DNA of 13,633 bases from Nitrospinae bacterium RIFCSPLOWO2_12_FULL_45_22 (GCA_001803565.1 MHDQ01000085.1:1-13633); one strand, 5' to 3'. Counted from the first letter of the stretch, positions 378-7,785 are shown. A program made the numbers and translations. The notes: generated by a model from the sequence alone, not told the origin.

Positions 378-415
378 AATAAACCCTCATGCCCCTTGGG
401 ATATGAGGGTTTATT
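378..415. terminator. bidirectional rho-independent terminator
   Basis: Perfect 13-bp inverted repeat (AATAAACCCTCAT at 378-390, its complement at 403-415) with a 12-nt loop that holds a further CCC/GGG pairing. The A-rich and T-rich ends of the stem give a U-tract in both directions. It starts right after the stop of the plus-strand dehydratase gene, and its other arm overlaps the TAA stop of the minus-strand B12-subunit gene. It therefore serves both convergent transcripts. Confidence 0.85.
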
Positions 416-800
416 TTGAATCCTCAACACAGGAAACGATATCCTGAATCCTGGTGCCGGGGGTAAAGACTTCTCTTACCCCCATGCCTTTTATAAGGGA
501 TATCATACTGGGAGGAATAATGCCTCCTACGATGACTTTAATATCGGGGACTCCTCTCTCCTTTAATAGGCTCATTAATCGGCCCACAAGGATATCTGGC
601 GCACCATCCATGATGCGATAGCCTATGAAGTCTACATCTTCCTCTACAGCAGTATCTACAATCTCCCGCGGTATTTGATACCCTCCAAGGACTACCTCTA
701 TCCCGGCTTCCTGTAATCCCTTGGCCACTACATAATACCCTGTGGAGTGTCCTAAAGAATCCATAACGAGAAGCACGCGTATCTTCTTCTGGTTACTCAA
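411..800 (-). CDS. cobalamin (B12)-binding small subunit of an acyl-CoA mutase, divergent
   Basis: 129 aa, the size of the stand-alone B12-binding subunits of two-component acyl-CoA mutases (isobutyryl-CoA, 2-hydroxyisobutyryl-CoA and archaeal methylmalonyl-CoA mutases). The fold is clear: first strand IRVLLVMDS, then GHSTG (residues 17-21), the central VDFIG strand (56-60) and the VGGIIPP loop (91-97) that holds the nucleotide tail. The lower-ligand His18 of the DxHxxG motif and Gly21 are present. The Asp two residues before the His is Leu16, the Lys of the Lys-Asp-His triad is Val12, and the SxL motif reads Arg62-Ile-Met64. The start is TTG, supported by GGAGG six bases upstream and no better in-frame start. 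It is the last gene of the operon, 58 bp after the large subunit, and should form the mutase with it. It could also act as a B12-carrier protein for another partner. Confidence 0.85.
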   Translation of the reverse strand: MSNQKKIRVLLVMDSLGHSTGYYVVAKGLQEAGIEVVLGGYQIPREIVDTAVEEDVDFIGYRIMDGAPDILVGRLMSLLKERGVPDIKVIVGGIIPPSMISLIKGMGVREVFTPGTRIQDIVSCVEDSK

Positions 801-858
801 TCGGCTCCTCCCTTTAGCTAGTTAAATAGACCCTTGAATCTAACCGATTATATTCTGC

Positions 859-2526
859 TTACATGCCAAAGAACTTACCACCGAACCGGGACAGATCCAA
901 AGACCCAAAGACTTCCTTTCTGATCTGAACGATCTCTCCGATGCTCAAATATGCCTTTACGGCCTCTATCATAGGTTCAATGATGTTTACCCGGCTCCGG
1001 TATGCCTGAGCCAACATCTTTTTGGCTGCTTCTACTTTCTTTGGGTCTCTTTCTCGCTTAACCTTTTCCAGCCGGGCAATCTGACGGTCCCGCCAGCCCG
1101 GATCGTACTCCTGCAATTTTACGCTATGTGCAGGGACAGATTCTTCCTCTTCCATGACAAATCTATTCACCCCTACTAACACCCTTTCCCCATTATCAAT
1201 AGCCCGTTGCCGCTGATATCCGGCCTCATCCGCTTCTTCCTCCATATATCTAAAGGCCCTTTCTGGACTCAAACGGTTAAGGTAGTCCAAAATCTCCCTG
1301 GCCTGTTCCTCCAATTGATTTGTCAGAGTCTCTACGCAATAAGACCCACCCAGGGGGTCTAAAACCTTTGCTATCCCTGTTTCATAGAAGATAATCTGCT
1401 GCGTCCGAATGGAAAGGGTAGCGGAAGCCTCGGTAGGTATGGCCAACGCCTCATCGAAAGAGTTAACGGAGAGGGATTGCGCCCCACCGAGAATCGCAGC
1501 CAGCGCATGGATAGTGGAACGAATAAGGTTATTATAGGGCTGTTGAGCGGTCAAGTTTAGGGCTGTAGTCTGGACATGAAACCGCATTAGCCAGGACCTG
1601 GGGTCCTTAGCCCCCATATCTTCCCGCATGAGTCGAGCCCACACTCTCCGCATGGCTCGATATTTCGCCACCTCTTCTAAAAATTCGTTCTCTGCGCTCA
1701 GGAAGAAAGAGACTCGTGGAGCAACCTCGTCCACTCCTAATCCACGGGCCATTGCTGACTTTATTGTATAAAGCCCAAGATAAAGTCCAAAGGCAATCTC
1801 CTGCAGAGCAGATACCCCTTGATCTCGAATATTCCTGACTGAGATGCTCGTATGATTCCATAAAGGAAGGTTCTTAGAACAGTACTCAATAATATCAATC
1901 GTGCCGTTCCCTTCGAACCGCGGTCCTTCTCCGCCAGGAATTACGCAATTCTGAATGGTACCCCGCAACTTTGCCAGCTCTATCTTTCTGCGCTGGGCTT
2001 CAGCCAGGATCATAGCAAAAACCGGGATGGAGCAGCCAATCTGGTTGATACTAATCTTCTCCATATCAATACCCGCAAAGAGGGTCTCAATATCAGCCAG
2101 GGAATCAATCCATACTCCTCCACGGCCCAGCATCCCCAGGGAACGTTCATCACTAGACTCATAGGGATCATACCCCATACCACAGACACTAAAGCCGGTC
2201 TGCCCTTGTTCAAACAGGTGTTTTAATCGCTCATTGGTCTCTTCAGCCGTCCCTATCCCCACTACTTGTCTAATAGTCCACTCTTTAGTCTGGTAACCGG
2301 TTGGTGTTACTCCCTGGGTAAAGGGATATACTCCTGGAAAACCAATATCTTTCAAATAATCAACCTTAGTTATATCCAGAGGGGTATAAACCATTTTCAA
2401 TGGAATACCGGAAACAGTTGTTTCTTCTAACTCCTTTTCGCCATATTTTTTGAGGATATGCTCTATCAGTCTTTCATACTCCTTCTTTGCCTGCTCAATC
2501 TCTGCCAGGACTTCTTCGTTAAACAC
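859..2526 (-). CDS. methylmalonyl-CoA-mutase-like large (catalytic) subunit, divergent active site
   Basis: 555 aa, the usual length of separate large subunits (TIM barrel only, no B12 domain). Family landmarks in order: PGVYPFTQGVTPTGY (64-78), WTIRQ (83-87), GTAEETNERLKHLFEQGQTG (92-111), LRGTIQN (187-193), APRVSFF (269-275), RFHVQTT (315-321), LTAQQPYNN (325-333), LGGAQSL (346-352) and DPLGGSYCVE (390-399). Family enzymes use adenosylcobalamin radicals to rearrange acyl-CoA carbon skeletons. Several substrate-pocket positions differ from the Propionibacterium enzyme. Tyr89 is kept (Tyr78), but Tyr243-His244 is Arg231-Asn232, and the loop that carries Arg207 is about seven residues shorter (194-207). 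The start is GTG with AGGAGG at good spacing. It lies 114 bp after the CoA-transferase and 58 bp before the B12 subunit, all co-directional. A true methylmalonyl-CoA mutase is unlikely; an acyl-CoA mutase of unknown substrate is the best call. Confidence 0.88.
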   Translation of the reverse strand: MFNEEVLAEIEQAKKEYERLIEHILKKYGEKELEETTVSGIPLKMVYTPLDITKVDYLKDIGFPGVYPFTQGVTPTGYQTKEWTIRQVVGIGTAEETNERLKHLFEQGQTGFSVCGMGYDPYESSDERSLGMLGRGGVWIDSLADIETLFAGIDMEKISINQIGCSIPVFAMILAEAQRRKIELAKLRGTIQNCVIPGGEGPRFEGNGTIDIIEYCSKNLPLWNHTSISVRNIRDQGVSALQEIAFGLYLGLYTIKSAMARGLGVDEVAPRVSFFLSAENEFLEEVAKYRAMRRVWARLMREDMGAKDPRSWLMRFHVQTTALNLTAQQPYNNLIRSTIHALAAILGGAQSLSVNSFDEALAIPTEASATLSIRTQQIIFYETGIAKVLDPLGGSYCVETLTNQLEEQAREILDYLNRLSPERAFRYMEEEADEAGYQRQRAIDNGERVLVGVNRFVMEEEESVPAHSVKLQEYDPGWRDRQIARLEKVKRERDPKKVEAAKKMLAQAYRSRVNIIEPMIEAVKAYLSIGEIVQIRKEVFGSLDLSRFGGKFFGM

Positions 2527-2640
2527 CGCTTACCCTCCTTATTCATCTTTATCCAATCGGGCTTATATCAAGAAATATGTGGATGCATCTTGAGAAATTA
2601 AAGGTCAACTGCAGCTATTCGCGAAAAGGTTACCAGAGTA

Positions 2641-5136
2641 TTATATTATTCCCTTAGTTTTCAATCCAGCCATTTCCTCAACGCTATATCCCAGAACTTC
2701 AGTATAAATTTCGTGGTTATGCTGTCCGAGTATCGGGGCACCCTTTATAATATACTCGGGCATCGAAGAAAATCTGGGAAAGACGCCCTGGACTTTCACA
2801 GGACCCATTACCGGGTCTTCAACCTCAATAATTGCTCTTCGGGCTTTATAGTGGGGGTCGTTAAAAATGTCCTTAACATTATTAATGGGACTAACAGGAA
2901 CTCCGGCATTAACCATTATTTCTACCACCTCGTCCAGATTATAACCCCCAACCCATTCTGCTATAAGAGCATGGAGCATATCGGCATTTTCTACCCTACC
3001 TTTCATGTCCTGATACTGAGGATCATTGGGTAAGTCTTCTCTTCCAATAACCCGGGAAAGCCTTTCGAAGAACTTATCGGTAGGGGCCTCAATAGCTACC
3101 CAGCATCCATCCTTGGTTTTAAAATGCCCTGCAGGGGCAATATTCATATAGTGGCTTCCGTTGCGGGACCTTATAATACCAAGCTTATCATACGCTACCA
3201 CGGTATATTCCAGAAGGCGAAATATAGACTCATAAAGGGAGATATCAACCCATTGCCCCGTTCCTGTTTCCTCTACATCTCTATAGTAAAGGGCAATCAT
3301 AGTAGCAAGGGCATTGGTTATCGCGGTTATATAATCGCCCAGGATCAAACCCGGCCGTATAGGTGGGGCATCAGGCTCGCCAGTCAGATATACAAAACCC
3401 CCTGCCCCTAAACCGACTATATCATACCCGGGTTTATATCTATAGGGACCGGTCTCACCAAAGGTTGTAACCCGGATCAAGATTATCCGGGGATTGATCT
3501 TCTGTAGTTCATCATAGCCAAGGTTCCACTTTTCTAATACCCCAGCACGAAAATCTGTTAATACGATATCTGATATTTTCACCAGACGCTTTACCATCTC
3601 TTGGCCTTCTTTGGACTTCAAATTCAAAGTGATGGATTTTTTACCCCGACCTTCCACCGTCCAAAAAAAACCAGAATCTTTATAGAATGGCCCTACATTA
3701 CGCAAGAGCATTTTCTTGCCCGTAGGCTCTTCGATCTTTATTACCTCGGCACCAAATTCCCCTAATATTGTGGTTCCTATAGGACCCGCGCCGGATGAGC
3801 CGAGGTCCAAAATCCTTATCCCTTCCAATGGCCGTCTTAATCCATTTTCTCCTTTGCCGAGCTCCTTATCTTTACTTATTACCCCTTTATTCGTTCCATT
3901 AGAAACTCTTTTATTATCTTTGGGGATAGGGAAGGGAATCACTATTTGTTCCCGAAAAAGGGTTTCTATCTGCTCTGGGCTATAACCTAAAAGGTCGCAG
4001 AATATTTCCTGATTATGACAACCTAAAGGTGGGCCGCTCCATCTCACTCGGCCTGGTGTTAAGGAGAAGTGGGGGCTTATCCCCTGCATCTTTGCCTTCC
4101 CGATATCTGGGTCTTCCACTTCAATAATATTCCCCCGGGCAATATAGTGGGCGTCAGAGAAGATATTGTCTATAGAATAAATAGGACCGACAGGGACTTC
4201 ATTTTCCTCCATAATACTGAGGACTTCGGCTAAGAGATGATCCTTTACCCAATCCCTTAGAATGTTATTAATGGCATCAGTATTTTTGCACCGCGACTCA
4301 TTATCTTTGAACCTGTCATCCACTATAAGCTCTTCCCGCCCTATTGCCTTAGCTAGCCTGGCAAAGATGTGGTCTATAGGCGCTCCTAGAAAAACCCAAT
4401 TCCCATCGCTGGTCTCAAAGGTATCTATAGGAGCAACGAATAAAAAGCGATTACCGGTCCGTTCTTTGACTAATCCCAGCTTATCGAAAAGAGGGACATT
4501 GTTTTCATATAGCCGAAACAGTGCCTCATACATCGCAACATCTATCCATTGTCCCATTCCGGTTTTTTTTCGATGATAGATGGCCAAAAGGGTTGCCAGG
4601 CCATTGAACAATCCCGCAATGTAAGCACCGGCACTCACGCCTGTCCTCAATGGGGCACCACCTTCATAGCCAGTAAGATATGAGAGGCCACTCATAGCCG
4701 AAGCTACCATATCATATCCTGGACGATCTCTATATGGTCCATCTTGGCCAAAGGCAGATACCGACACCAGAATTATCTTGGGATTAATCCTTTTAAGCTC
4801 CTCATATCCTAATTTCCAGGCATCTAAGGTGCCCGGCCGGAAGCTCTCTACCACTACATCAACGACGGCTACCAGGTCTCTGATGATGTTTTGTCCTGCG
4901 CTTTTACTTATATCTATGGTTATAGATTTTTTATTCCTCCCATCCACTACCCACCATAACGATTTGTCTTTATAGAAAGGTGGCAAATTCCTCAATATAT
5001 CGCCTTTTTGTGGCTGTTCAACTTTAATAACTTCTGCCCCGAAATCAGCTAAGATAGTGGGTCCAAAGCCACCTGCCAGCCCATTCCCCATTTCTAAGAC
5101 CCTTAATCCTGCTAAAGGTAATTTATTTGCCGTCAT
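2641..5136 (-). CDS. fused tandem class III (CaiB/BaiF) CoA-transferase
   Basis: 831 aa, two complete CaiB/BaiF units in one chain: residues ~7-395 and ~436-831, joined by a Lys/Gly/Asn-rich linker (~397-435). Each repeats the family signature: LADFGAEVIKVEQP at 29-42 and LGEFGAEVIKIEEP at 458-471, FGQDGPYRDRPGYD and FGETGPYRYKPGYD, then TGxGQWxD. Class III transferases move CoA between carboxylic acids through an Asp-bound anhydride. The catalytic Asp is present in half 2 (Asp601, GDYITA) but is Ala171 in half 1 (GAYIAG), so one active and one structural half are expected. This recalls two-subunit transferases such as BbsEF of anaerobic toluene degradation. ATG start with GAGGAGG eight bases upstream. 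First gene of the operon with the mutase, and probably the step that makes the mutase substrate. The acid and the CoA donor cannot be read from sequence. Confidence 0.9.
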   Translation of the reverse strand: MTANKLPLAGLRVLEMGNGLAGGFGPTILADFGAEVIKVEQPQKGDILRNLPPFYKDKSLWWVVDGRNKKSITIDISKSAGQNIIRDLVAVVDVVVESFRPGTLDAWKLGYEELKRINPKIILVSVSAFGQDGPYRDRPGYDMVASAMSGLSYLTGYEGGAPLRTGVSAGAYIAGLFNGLATLLAIYHRKKTGMGQWIDVAMYEALFRLYENNVPLFDKLGLVKERTGNRFLFVAPIDTFETSDGNWVFLGAPIDHIFARLAKAIGREELIVDDRFKDNESRCKNTDAINNILRDWVKDHLLAEVLSIMEENEVPVGPIYSIDNIFSDAHYIARGNIIEVEDPDIGKAKMQGISPHFSLTPGRVRWSGPPLGCHNQEIFCDLLGYSPEQIETLFREQIVIPFPIPKDNKRVSNGTNKGVISKDKELGKGENGLRRPLEGIRILDLGSSGAGPIGTTILGEFGAEVIKIEEPTGKKMLLRNVGPFYKDSGFFWTVEGRGKKSITLNLKSKEGQEMVKRLVKISDIVLTDFRAGVLEKWNLGYDELQKINPRIILIRVTTFGETGPYRYKPGYDIVGLGAGGFVYLTGEPDAPPIRPGLILGDYITAITNALATMIALYYRDVEETGTGQWVDISLYESIFRLLEYTVVAYDKLGIIRSRNGSHYMNIAPAGHFKTKDGCWVAIEAPTDKFFERLSRVIGREDLPNDPQYQDMKGRVENADMLHALIAEWVGGYNLDEVVEIMVNAGVPVSPINNVKDIFNDPHYKARRAIIEVEDPVMGPVKVQGVFPRFSSMPEYIIKGAPILGQHNHEIYTEVLGYSVEEMAGLKTKGII

Positions 5137-5190
5137 CTTATGGGCCTCCTCTTTTTAATAGCCAAATCAAGGTTATAAATGTTATAGATG

Positions 5191-5217
5191 AAAAAATCGC
5201 CAGATATGCGCAGGCAA
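5191..5217 (-). promoter_or_regulatory. possible attenuator hairpin in the leader of the mutase operon
   Basis: Read on the minus strand, TTGCC (5217-5213) can pair with GGCGA (5201-5197) across an 11-nt loop and is followed at once by six T. The stem is short (5 bp, one G-T pair). It lies between the promoter and the start of the CoA-transferase gene, where a terminator would act as an attenuator. Weak evidence. Confidence 0.25.
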
Positions 5218-5316
5218 CAAGAAGATGAGGCGTATTATGTGGGCTATCAGGACTTGCCTGGATCAGGGAAGCTCAGCATCAGTTAGTCGCTAGAATTCTG
5301 AACCAATTCAGGCAGA

Positions 5317-5345
5317 AGAATAGTGTAATTCTTTTGGCCTGTCAA
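5317..5345 (-). promoter_or_regulatory. sigma70-type promoter for the CoA-transferase/mutase operon
   Basis: On the minus strand a consensus -35 box TTGACA (5345-5340), a 17-bp spacer and a -10 box TATTCT (5322-5317, 4 of 6 consensus). Transcription would start near 5310, giving a leader of roughly 170 nt before the ATG at 5136. This is the best promoter match I found in the window. Confidence 0.6.
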
Positions 5346-5390
5346 CAAATTTTTCTCTTGATATTTCCCAAAAATTTCAGAAAAATAGGA

Positions 5391-5444
5391 CACCTTCTAT
5401 TTTCCCATTAATTTGTTGGCTAACAAAAATTTGAGTAGAAGGTG
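5391..5444. promoter_or_regulatory. nested inverted repeats, candidate operator for the divergent genes
   Basis: Outer perfect 9-bp repeat CACCTTCTA (5391-5399) and TAGAAGGTG (5436-5444), enclosing an inner 6-bp repeat TTTGTT-GGCT-AACAAA (5412-5427). The site lies upstream of the minus-operon promoter. It overlaps a weak plus-strand candidate promoter (TTGTTG, 17 bp, TAGAAG) for the racemase-like gene. A dimeric repressor or activator could control both transcripts here. No regulator gene is present in the window to pair with it. Confidence 0.4.
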
Positions 5445-5493
5445 ATGAAGAGATAAAGTGAATAGTCGGAACAATTTTGCGGGAGGGAGCTAA

Positions 5494-6657
5494 ATGACTG
5501 CTTATTTACAGGATATAAGGGTTATAGATTTCTCTATCATGTTACCCGGGCCTTATTGTAGTATGCTCTTAGGGGATCTAGGTGCCGAGGTAATAAAGAT
5601 TGAGCAACCACCGGACGGAGACCCTGCCAGGATAATGATCCCGGGTTATTTCGAAAGTCTGAACCGGAATAAAAAGAGCCTGACTTTGGATCTCAAATCC
5701 GTACCGGGTAAGGAGATATTCTGTCAGCTTATTCGCTCGGCCGATATTCTTTTGGAAGGATTCCGGGGTGGGGTACTTAAACGACTCGGCTTTGGTTATG
5801 ATCAACTGCTCCAGATAAACCCCAGGATAGTCTTTTGCTCTATAGCCGGTTATGGTCAGGATAGTCCTTGGGCGAGCAGACCCGGGCATGATATCAACTA
5901 CCAGGGGGTAGCAGGGGTATTAAGTCTGAGTGGGGCACCTGATGGCCCGCCAGATTATACCATCGGAGTAGCCGCAGCAGACCTTACTGCTAGCTTATTT
6001 GCCCTCTCTTCTATTATAGCGGCCCTGTTTCATAGAGAAAAGACCGGGAAGGGCAATTGCATTGAAGTAGCTATCGCGGATGTAGCAGTATCCTTGATGT
6101 CTAACCGGATAGGAGAATTTTTTGCCCGAGGAAAACCATCTAAGAGCCAGCAGATGGGTAGGGCTGCTGCTGGGGTCTTTGAGACTAAAGATGGTAAATA
6201 TATCACGCTGGCGGCTGCGGAAGAACATTTCTGGAAGAGGTTATGTCAGGTTCTTGATCTAAAGGAGCTGAGCCAGGACCAAAGATTCTCTTCCACCCTG
6301 AATAGGAGTAAGTATCGCAAAGAGATCAATGAGCGTTTAGCAGAAGTATTTCGGACCCGGGAACAAAAGGAATGGTCAAATATATTAGAAAAGGCCGATT
6401 TACCGTGGGGGCCGGTAAACACCATCGAAGACCTCCCCAATGACCCGTATATCTCGTCTCGGCAATTAGTCCTCCCTCAAGAACACCCTTCATTGGGGAA
6501 TATATGGCAGGTCGCCTTCCCGGTAAAATTCCTCTCGGAACAACCTGAGATTAAACACCCGGCCCCCTCTTTAGGGCAACATAACCGGGAAATCCTGAAT
6601 TCATTAGGATACAGAGATGAAGATATGGCAATCTTTAAAGAGGAAAAAATTATTTAG
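5494..6657 (+). CDS. CaiB/BaiF family protein, alpha-methylacyl-CoA racemase-like
   Basis: 387 aa, single CaiB/BaiF unit. GDLGAEVIKIEQP (27-39), LNRNKKSLTLDLKS (56-69) and GYGQDSPWASRPGHDINYQG (119-138) are family blocks. The GHDINY motif puts a His (132) where racemases of the AMACR/MCR group have theirs. Asp163 (AADLTA) and Glu243 (AAEEHFW) align with the other two catalytic residues (His126, Asp156, Glu241 in the Mycobacterium enzyme). That points to epimerising the alpha carbon of a 2-methyl-branched acyl-CoA rather than CoA transfer, though Asp163 is also the position used by transferases. ATG start preceded by GGGAGGGAG. It is divergent from the transferase/mutase operon and shares its regulatory region, so it may supply the right stereoisomer to the mutase. 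A plain CoA-transferase is the main alternative. Confidence 0.85.
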   Translation: MTAYLQDIRVIDFSIMLPGPYCSMLLGDLGAEVIKIEQPPDGDPARIMIPGYFESLNRNKKSLTLDLKSVPGKEIFCQLIRSADILLEGFRGGVLKRLGFGYDQLLQINPRIVFCSIAGYGQDSPWASRPGHDINYQGVAGVLSLSGAPDGPPDYTIGVAAADLTASLFALSSIIAALFHREKTGKGNCIEVAIADVAVSLMSNRIGEFFARGKPSKSQQMGRAAAGVFETKDGKYITLAAAEEHFWKRLCQVLDLKELSQDQRFSSTLNRSKYRKEINERLAEVFRTREQKEWSNILEKADLPWGPVNTIEDLPNDPYISSRQLVLPQEHPSLGNIWQVAFPVKFLSEQPEIKHPAPSLGQHNREILNSLGYRDEDMAIFKEEKII

Positions 6658-6687: not shown

Positions 6688-7785
6688 CTAAGCCTCTGCA
6701 TCGACATAGCATGCCAGGCCCCTATCCAAAAACCGGAGACATTTATTGCAGGATATACAAGTTACCGGATCCTCCTGACCTTGCTCGATCTTGTTTACTA
6801 GATCGGGTTCCCGAATAAAAGGTCGGCATAATGATATAAAGTCAGCCTTTTTTTGTTGCAGTATTTCTTCCATGAGGGCTGGTGTCCGCATGCCGCCCAC
6901 AAGGATCAGAGGACAACGGATTTCAGATTTTATTTCTGGTGCGTATGGCAAGAAATACGCCTCCTGTTCTCTGCTCTTAATACCAGGGACGAGACATTTC
7001 CAGATAGATAATTCCAGTGTCCCACCGCTGATCTCAATGGCATCCATTCCGAGGTCAGATAGCAATCTGGCTGTCTTTCTTGTCTCTTCAAGGGTAAGAC
7101 CGCCTTCCACATAGTCATCTATATTCATCTTGATAAATAACGGATAATCCTGCCCTGCTACTTGCCTGATCCGTTTGTATACTTCGGTCACTAACCGCTG
7201 GCGGTTCTCAAAACTCCCGCCCCACTGATCGGTTCTCCGATTGGAATAGGGGGATAAGAACTGACTGATCAGGTAGCCATGAGCACCATGGAGCTGGACG
7301 CCATCGAATCCTGCCTCTCTTGCCCTTCGGGCGGCTTCTCCGAAAGCCTCTATAAGCTCCCATATCTGCTCATCCGTCATCTCTCTGGGGGTAATCCCGG
7401 TCCTTTTATAAGCGATAGGTGACGGTGCAATGGGTGGAAAATCTTGGGCACTATCGGCTTGCATCTGGCGGCCACAATGGAAAATTTGAGGAACTATTTT
7501 TGCTCCATAATTATGGGCCTGCTTGATAAGCCTCTGCCATCCGGGTATCATCTCATCCTTATGCAGACCAGGCATTTTGTAGCCTGAACGTCCACTCTCG
7601 TGCACAAAGGCCACTCCAGTAACAATCAGACCCACACCCCCTTTGGCTAATTCCGTATAGCGCGATACCAGGGCATCGGTTACCTGCCCATCGGCAGCGG
7701 CCAAGCTCTCGCCCGTTGCAGACCGCACAAAACGATTCTTTATCTCCATATTGCCTATCTTTCCTGGGGTAAATAATAGCTTCAT
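6688..7785 (-). CDS. NADH:flavin oxidoreductase, old yellow enzyme / 2,4-dienoyl-CoA reductase type
   Basis: 365 aa, FMN-dependent TIM-barrel domain only. It lacks the C-terminal FAD/NAD domain of full 2,4-dienoyl-CoA reductase (about 670 aa). Diagnostic motifs: LFTPGKIGNMEIKNRFVRS (4-22), HGAHGYLISQFLSPYSNRRT (166-185) followed by DQWGGSFENR, and LVGGMR (295-300) near the phosphate site. His166, His169 and Tyr171 are the expected catalytic and substrate residues. The C-terminus has four Cys (343, 346, 349, 359) in CxxCxxCx9C, near but not equal to the iron-sulfur motif of 2,4-dienoyl-CoA reductases. It probably reduces an activated C=C bond, plausibly of an enoyl- or dienoyl-CoA made in the neighbouring pathway; that link is inference. 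ATG start with a GGAGGGGAGG stretch just upstream. Convergent to the racemase-like gene, 30 bp apart. Confidence 0.88.
   Translation of the reverse strand: MKLLFTPGKIGNMEIKNRFVRSATGESLAAADGQVTDALVSRYTELAKGGVGLIVTGVAFVHESGRSGYKMPGLHKDEMIPGWQRLIKQAHNYGAKIVPQIFHCGRQMQADSAQDFPPIAPSPIAYKRTGITPREMTDEQIWELIEAFGEAARRAREAGFDGVQLHGAHGYLISQFLSPYSNRRTDQWGGSFENRQRLVTEVYKRIRQVAGQDYPLFIKMNIDDYVEGGLTLEETRKTARLLSDLGMDAIEISGGTLELSIWKCLVPGIKSREQEAYFLPYAPEIKSEIRCPLILVGGMRTPALMEEILQQKKADFISLCRPFIREPDLVNKIEQGQEDPVTCISCNKCLRFLDRGLACYVDAEA

Follow-up and report, generated by a model that had tools for sequence, protein, structure and literature searches.

We analysed a 13,633-nucleotide stretch of DNA (hereafter, the window) from Nitrospinae bacterium RIFCSPLOWO2_12_FULL_45_22, a member of a poorly known phylum. 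The window makes up the whole of contig C85 in a draft genome of 3.67 Mb that is 85% complete. The window encodes a two-subunit mutase of the B12-dependent acyl-coenzyme A (CoA) type, a fused CoA-transferase, and a divergently oriented racemase-like protein. The mutase belongs to a subclade that we call xRN, which differs from the characterised enzymes in its substrate pocket, and it is with this subclade that we are mainly concerned. The principal features are as follows.

411 to 800, minus strand: B12-binding small subunit, 129 amino acids (TIGR00640, E 1e-29).
859 to 2526, minus strand: acyl-CoA mutase large subunit, 555 amino acids, a member of the xRN subclade (PF01642, E 7.5e-148).
2641 to 5136, minus strand: fused class III CoA-transferase, 831 amino acids, with two CaiB/BaiF domains (PF02515 twice, E 1.2e-231).
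5137 to 5493, no strand: divergent control region of 357 bp separating the transferase operon from the racemase-like gene.
5494 to 6657, plus strand: CaiB/BaiF protein resembling alpha-methylacyl-CoA racemase (AMACR), 387 amino acids, with GHDINY and Asp (PF02515, E 5e-115).

A preliminary description of the window had named this same set of genes, and it is borne out by intact open reading frames for all four at these coordinates and by strong matches to curated families. The three minus-strand genes are separated by gaps of 114 bp (transferase to mutase) and 58 bp (mutase to B12 subunit), and a purine-rich ribosome-binding site can be read right ahead of each start codon. In the control region, comparison with Rfam gave no cobalamin riboswitch or other RNA at the Rfam threshold, and promoter and terminator scans gave matches no more frequent than in shuffled sequence.

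The large subunit has the full-length PF01642 domain and TIM-barrel mutase fold of the acyl-CoA mutase superfamily. It covers profile positions 1-512 of 512 with a score of 493 bits, compared with 152 bits only for the small-subunit model TIGR00642. An AlphaFold2 model was obtained with a predicted local distance difference test score of 76.6 and a predicted template modelling score of 0.82, and its best match among solved structures is 2-hydroxyisobutyryl-CoA mutase (HCM; 4r3u), with a Z-score of 39.7, a root-mean-square deviation of 2.0 over 500 residues, and 37% identity in the structural alignment. The next matches are the human and P. shermanii methylmalonyl-CoA mutases (MCM). Numbering the pocket positions by P. 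shermanii MutB, we see departures from MCM in three stretches of the gene.

1822 to 1848, minus strand: SISVRNIRD, with Arg-Asn where MCM has Tyr243-His244.
1915 to 1959, minus strand: TIQNCVIPGGEGPRF, a shortened loop from which the position of MCM Arg207 is removed.
2257 to 2280, minus strand: WTIRQVVG, with Val where MCM has Tyr89 (Ile in HCM, and Phe in enzymes like isobutyryl-CoA mutase, ICM).

In MCM structures, R207, Y89 and H244 are established as substrate-binding residues. The residues retained in the window mutase (R283, H328, Q330, Q361, N366 and E370) are those that handle the adenosyl group in MCM. Those altered alike in the mutase and its orthologs are Y89, F117, S164, R207, Y243 and H244. 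The same pocket changes are found in orthologs of 67-70% identity (L039, L040, L056, L057 and L058; L060 is partial), and three further relatives of 47-51% identity (L061, L089 and L010) have the Arg-Asn pair in common with the window mutase. Among approximately 125 aligned mutases, Arg243 occurs in all ten distinct members of the clade and in no other sequence, whereas Asn244 is also present outside it.

None of the residue combinations that mark the characterised enzymes is found in the window mutase. With MCM (P. shermanii MutB, human MMUT) it shares the fold and H328, Q330, N366 and E370, but Tyr89 is replaced by Val, Arg207 is deleted, Tyr243-His244 is replaced by Arg and Asn, and it has no fused B12 domain. 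HCM (HcmA/HcmB of Aquincola tertiaricarbonis) is the nearest solved structure and has the same arrangement of a large subunit with a separate B12 subunit, but it carries GYH, a full 195-214 loop with Gln207, Ile89 and FDMP, where the window mutase has VRN, the shortened loop, Val and CGMG. Isobutyryl-CoA mutase, the ICM-like two-subunit mutases and IcmF belong to the same superfamily, but the ICM-like enzymes have Phe89, Gln207 and GYH, and form a clade of their own.

Phylogenetic trees were built from 98 and 56 mutase sequences, the (1-methylalkyl)succinyl-CoA mutase of alkane degraders not being among them. In both trees the window mutase is placed apart from MCM, HCM and the ICM-like enzymes, in a clade supported at 100/100 for six members, 100/99 for eight and 100/98 for nine. 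Constraining it to group with either HCM or MCM is disfavoured, with approximately unbiased test p-values of 0.046 and 0.026, respectively. The novelty that the preliminary description had proposed for this mutase is therefore upheld by its position outside these characterised groups. Its nearest relatives sit in another phylum. That the mutase operon arrived recently from a foreign source was considered and is unsupported, as the base composition of the genes resembles that of the rest of the window and of the genome.

These data bear on the simplest alternative, namely that sequence drift has altered an otherwise ordinary methylmalonyl-, isobutyryl- or 2-hydroxyisobutyryl-CoA mutase. The shared fold, the 37% identity to HCM and the retention of adenosyl-handling residues by the orthologs are all compatible with that explanation. 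We nevertheless regard it as very unlikely, since the substrate residues of all three enzymes are missing (Y89/R207 of MCM, Phe/Gln of the ICM-like enzymes, Ile/Gln of HCM), the clade is under purifying selection and has the changes fixed throughout, and the tree position lies elsewhere. The source genome moreover already has an ICM-like mutase (L001) and a GYH-type mutase (L002), both separate from the window mutase.

Other mutase genes are seen in the source genome (G000). One further mutase and B12 pair, with the pocket motif GVN (L070, contig C318, 1333-13455), lies close to HypA/HypB-like genes, a double-cubane-type reductase subunit, and a divergent glycyl-radical enzyme with its activase. 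Elsewhere, two very divergent mutases stand in tandem with two B12 subunits in between (L071, contig C286, 273-4608), and a mutase gene is split over two overlapping frames (L075, contig C300, 7040-8736) by a frameshift that either the organism has or the assembly introduced.

The B12 subunit retains the cobalt-ligating His (SLGHSTG), the Gly of HxxG and the GG motif. It lacks the complete DxHxxG...SxL...GG signature: the Asp is Leu in the window (Leu or Pro across the orthologs), and SxL is RIM, a change kept across the orthologs. It is the large subunit that places the pair in the superfamily, and the B12 domain is a variant. Among 49 B12 domains, seven lack both the Asp and the Ser, and these are precisely the readable partners of the eight-member clade that includes the window's mutase, while the B12 domain of L010, which lies one step outside this clade in the tree, has both. 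This indicates that the two subunits changed together. The orthologs show a ratio of nonsynonymous to synonymous substitution rates of 0.05-0.17, indicating purifying selection, so the change in the B12 domain is not decay. A gene for the MeaB chaperone was found in the source genome.

The two missing signature residues invite the view that this mutase has given up radical catalysis and now has a role in binding or regulation, for which the non-catalytic MutA subunit of MCM offers a precedent. We consider this quite unlikely, because the cobalt-ligating His, the GG motif and Q330, N366 and E370 are kept in all orthologs examined, and because the large subunit matches PF01642 far better than the model of the small subunit, as noted above.

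Taken together, the mutase and its B12 subunit probably form an acyl-CoA carbon-skeleton mutase that depends on adenosylcobalamin, belongs to a new subclade and acts on a non-classical acyl-CoA, with the transferase loading CoA and the racemase-like protein a mere neighbour. This reading draws on the intact predicted fold, the adenosyl-handling residues, the cobalt-ligating His, the purifying selection, and the joint change of substrate pocket and B12 domain. As both the substrate pocket and the B12 holder lack residues on which the characterised relatives rely, the substrate is probably not one yet identified. Catalysis would follow the usual cycle, in which homolysis of the Co-C bond is followed by hydrogen abstraction by the 5'-deoxyadenosyl radical, a 1,2-shift of the CoA-thioester group, and return of the hydrogen. 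The acyl-CoA would be other than methylmalonyl-, isobutyryl- or 2-hydroxyisobutyryl-CoA. In the pocket, Asn may replace His244 in contacting the thioester, and Arg243 may anchor the anionic or polar group that is held by Arg207 in MCM. In the source organism, the fused transferase just upstream would put CoA on the acid.

Several points weigh against this interpretation. We know of no xRN clade member with known activity. Without the DxHxxG Asp and the SxL Ser, the B12 subunit might bind cobalamin weakly or take up a different cobamide; cobamide binding is known to vary among MCM orthologs (PMC6759758). The link between transferase and mutase is seen on one contig and in no other genome, and fused transferases of a similar kind occur apart from mutases both in the source genome and in G001, the one other genome of the source phylum that was compared.

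In heteromeric class III CoA-transferases of the BbsE/BbsF type, one chain has the catalytic Asp and one does not, and the same division is seen in the fused transferase between domain 1, in which Asp is replaced by Ala (GAY, a dead site), and domain 2, in which it is retained (GDY, a live site). BbsE/BbsF (9fn0) and the other heteromeric enzymes have paired CaiB/BaiF chains, whereas the window pair is fused. Domain 1 is nearer the succinate-(hydroxymethyl)glutarate type and domain 2 nearer the mesaconate type, both below curated cut-offs. The source phylum shows an expansion of fused two-domain class III CoA-transferases (L062, L063 and L064 in G000; L053 and L078 in G001), several of which have lost the catalytic Asp in one domain.

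The racemase-like protein has GHDINY at residues 131-136 and an Asp 31 residues past the His (a spacing of 30 in FAR), and so has both the catalytic His (GHD) and the catalytic Asp of AMACR. It shares these elements with the alpha-methylacyl-CoA racemases MCR and FAR of M. tuberculosis, but its length and overall similarity are nearer CoA-transferases, phmmer giving 224 bits to formyl-CoA transferase compared with 160 to AMACR. The earlier transferase and racemase assignments are consistent with these catalytic residues. Directly behind the racemase-like gene lies one further feature.

6688 to 7785, minus strand: Old-yellow-enzyme (OYE) family oxidoreductase, 365 amino acids, whose convergent pairing with the racemase-like gene is conserved.

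It had also been proposed that the transferase, racemase and mutase form a conserved four-gene catabolic module, whose enzymes would convert a single branched or dicarboxylic acid step by step in the manner of anaerobic alkane degradation. The genes are indeed adjacent in the window and have the 357-bp control region in common, the racemase residues are present, and for alkylsuccinates a racemase step together with a mutase step has been put forward (PMC6776118). No instance of this neighbourhood was seen in the genomes examined, however. In six genomes the orthologous mutases have no CoA-transferase or racemase adjoining them within the flanks present, two of the six loci being on contigs of just 3-5 kb. 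In G001, orthologs of the racemase-like gene (83%) and of the OYE gene (84%) are again adjacent and convergent, with no mutase or transferase there. This indicates that the conserved units are mutase with B12 subunit and racemase-like gene with OYE. Relatives of the racemase-like gene at 50% identity in the mutase-rich order described below mostly adjoin an acyl-CoA dehydrogenase. The divergent gene would thus go with the OYE behind it and be a neighbour only of the mutase operon, and the transferase is tied to the mutase by position alone.

The analogy with hydrocarbon degradation by fumarate addition fares no better. The window is without a glycyl-radical enzyme, as the preliminary description had said. 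The source genome has four, all of which match best to PFL2-3/glycerol-dehydratase or sulfopropanediol-dehydratase models, below curated cut-offs. When compared with solved structures, the enzyme on contig C15 gave 530 bits to glycerol dehydratase, 414 to MasD and 396 to BssA, and the remaining three have a similar profile pattern. These look like enzymes of the glycerol-dehydratase kind, and no fumarate-adding enzyme (benzylsuccinate or (methyl)alkylsuccinate synthase) was found in this 85% complete genome. So far as that completeness allows, there is thus no support for the alkane analogy, and an alkane or hydrocarbon pathway was rejected. Overall, we judge the four-gene pathway to be unlikely. 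In short, the mutase subclade is real and unusual, and the four genes as a conserved module are not supported on present evidence.

Returning to the xRN mutases, their neighbours include TRAP transport genes, OYE with a flavoprotein dehydrogenase (L082), a GntR regulator, enoyl-CoA hydratase, MmgE/PrpD, acyl-CoA ligase and a second mutase pair. The TRAP transporters beside the orthologs suggest that the substrate may be an imported organic acid. MmgE/PrpD-family genes recurrently adjoin xRN mutases in two lineages (L039, 14546-15922 and 17631-19019; L088, 3762-5150), a hint of a polycarboxylic substrate.

The xRN clade is rare. Its mutase and B12 subunit are present in six of eight genomes of one mutase-rich uncultured order, and the clade occurs in 7 of 395 genomes of that order's phylum (the phylum of G060). 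Across a spread of 386 genomes the sole relative, 50% identical, is in G033, the next matches being ordinary GYH mutases. The order itself (G060-G067, G244; L082-L087, L090-L159), labelled Desulfobacterales/Deltaproteobacteria, has 13-30 mutase genes per genome with very varied pocket motifs, in genomes of 2-3 Mb; the residues at MCM positions 89, 207 and 243-244 differ widely among these mutases. Up to 27 glycyl-radical enzymes are also seen (G063). No paper on xRN mutases or on the mutase-rich genomes was found in the open-access literature.

A bolder proposal, which we put forward tentatively as a possibility, is that the xRN mutases act by 1,2-rearrangement on a class of acyl-CoA without a known B12 mutase, with Asn contacting the thioester, Arg anchoring a side group, and the B12 domain re-tuned for another cobamide or another Co-His bond. 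They might then be one of many such inventions in this order, each genome of which has 13 to 30 divergent mutases. Acyl-CoA mutases have only a handful of known substrates, and one or two residues of the pocket suffice to tell the known enzymes apart. The xRN clade is conserved, has all such residues replaced and shows a matching change in the cobalamin domain; it probably represents an undiscovered B12 reaction and offers a clean target for assay. The mutase-rich genomes, with their many copies and varied pocket motifs, provide a ready set in which to look for more such enzymes.

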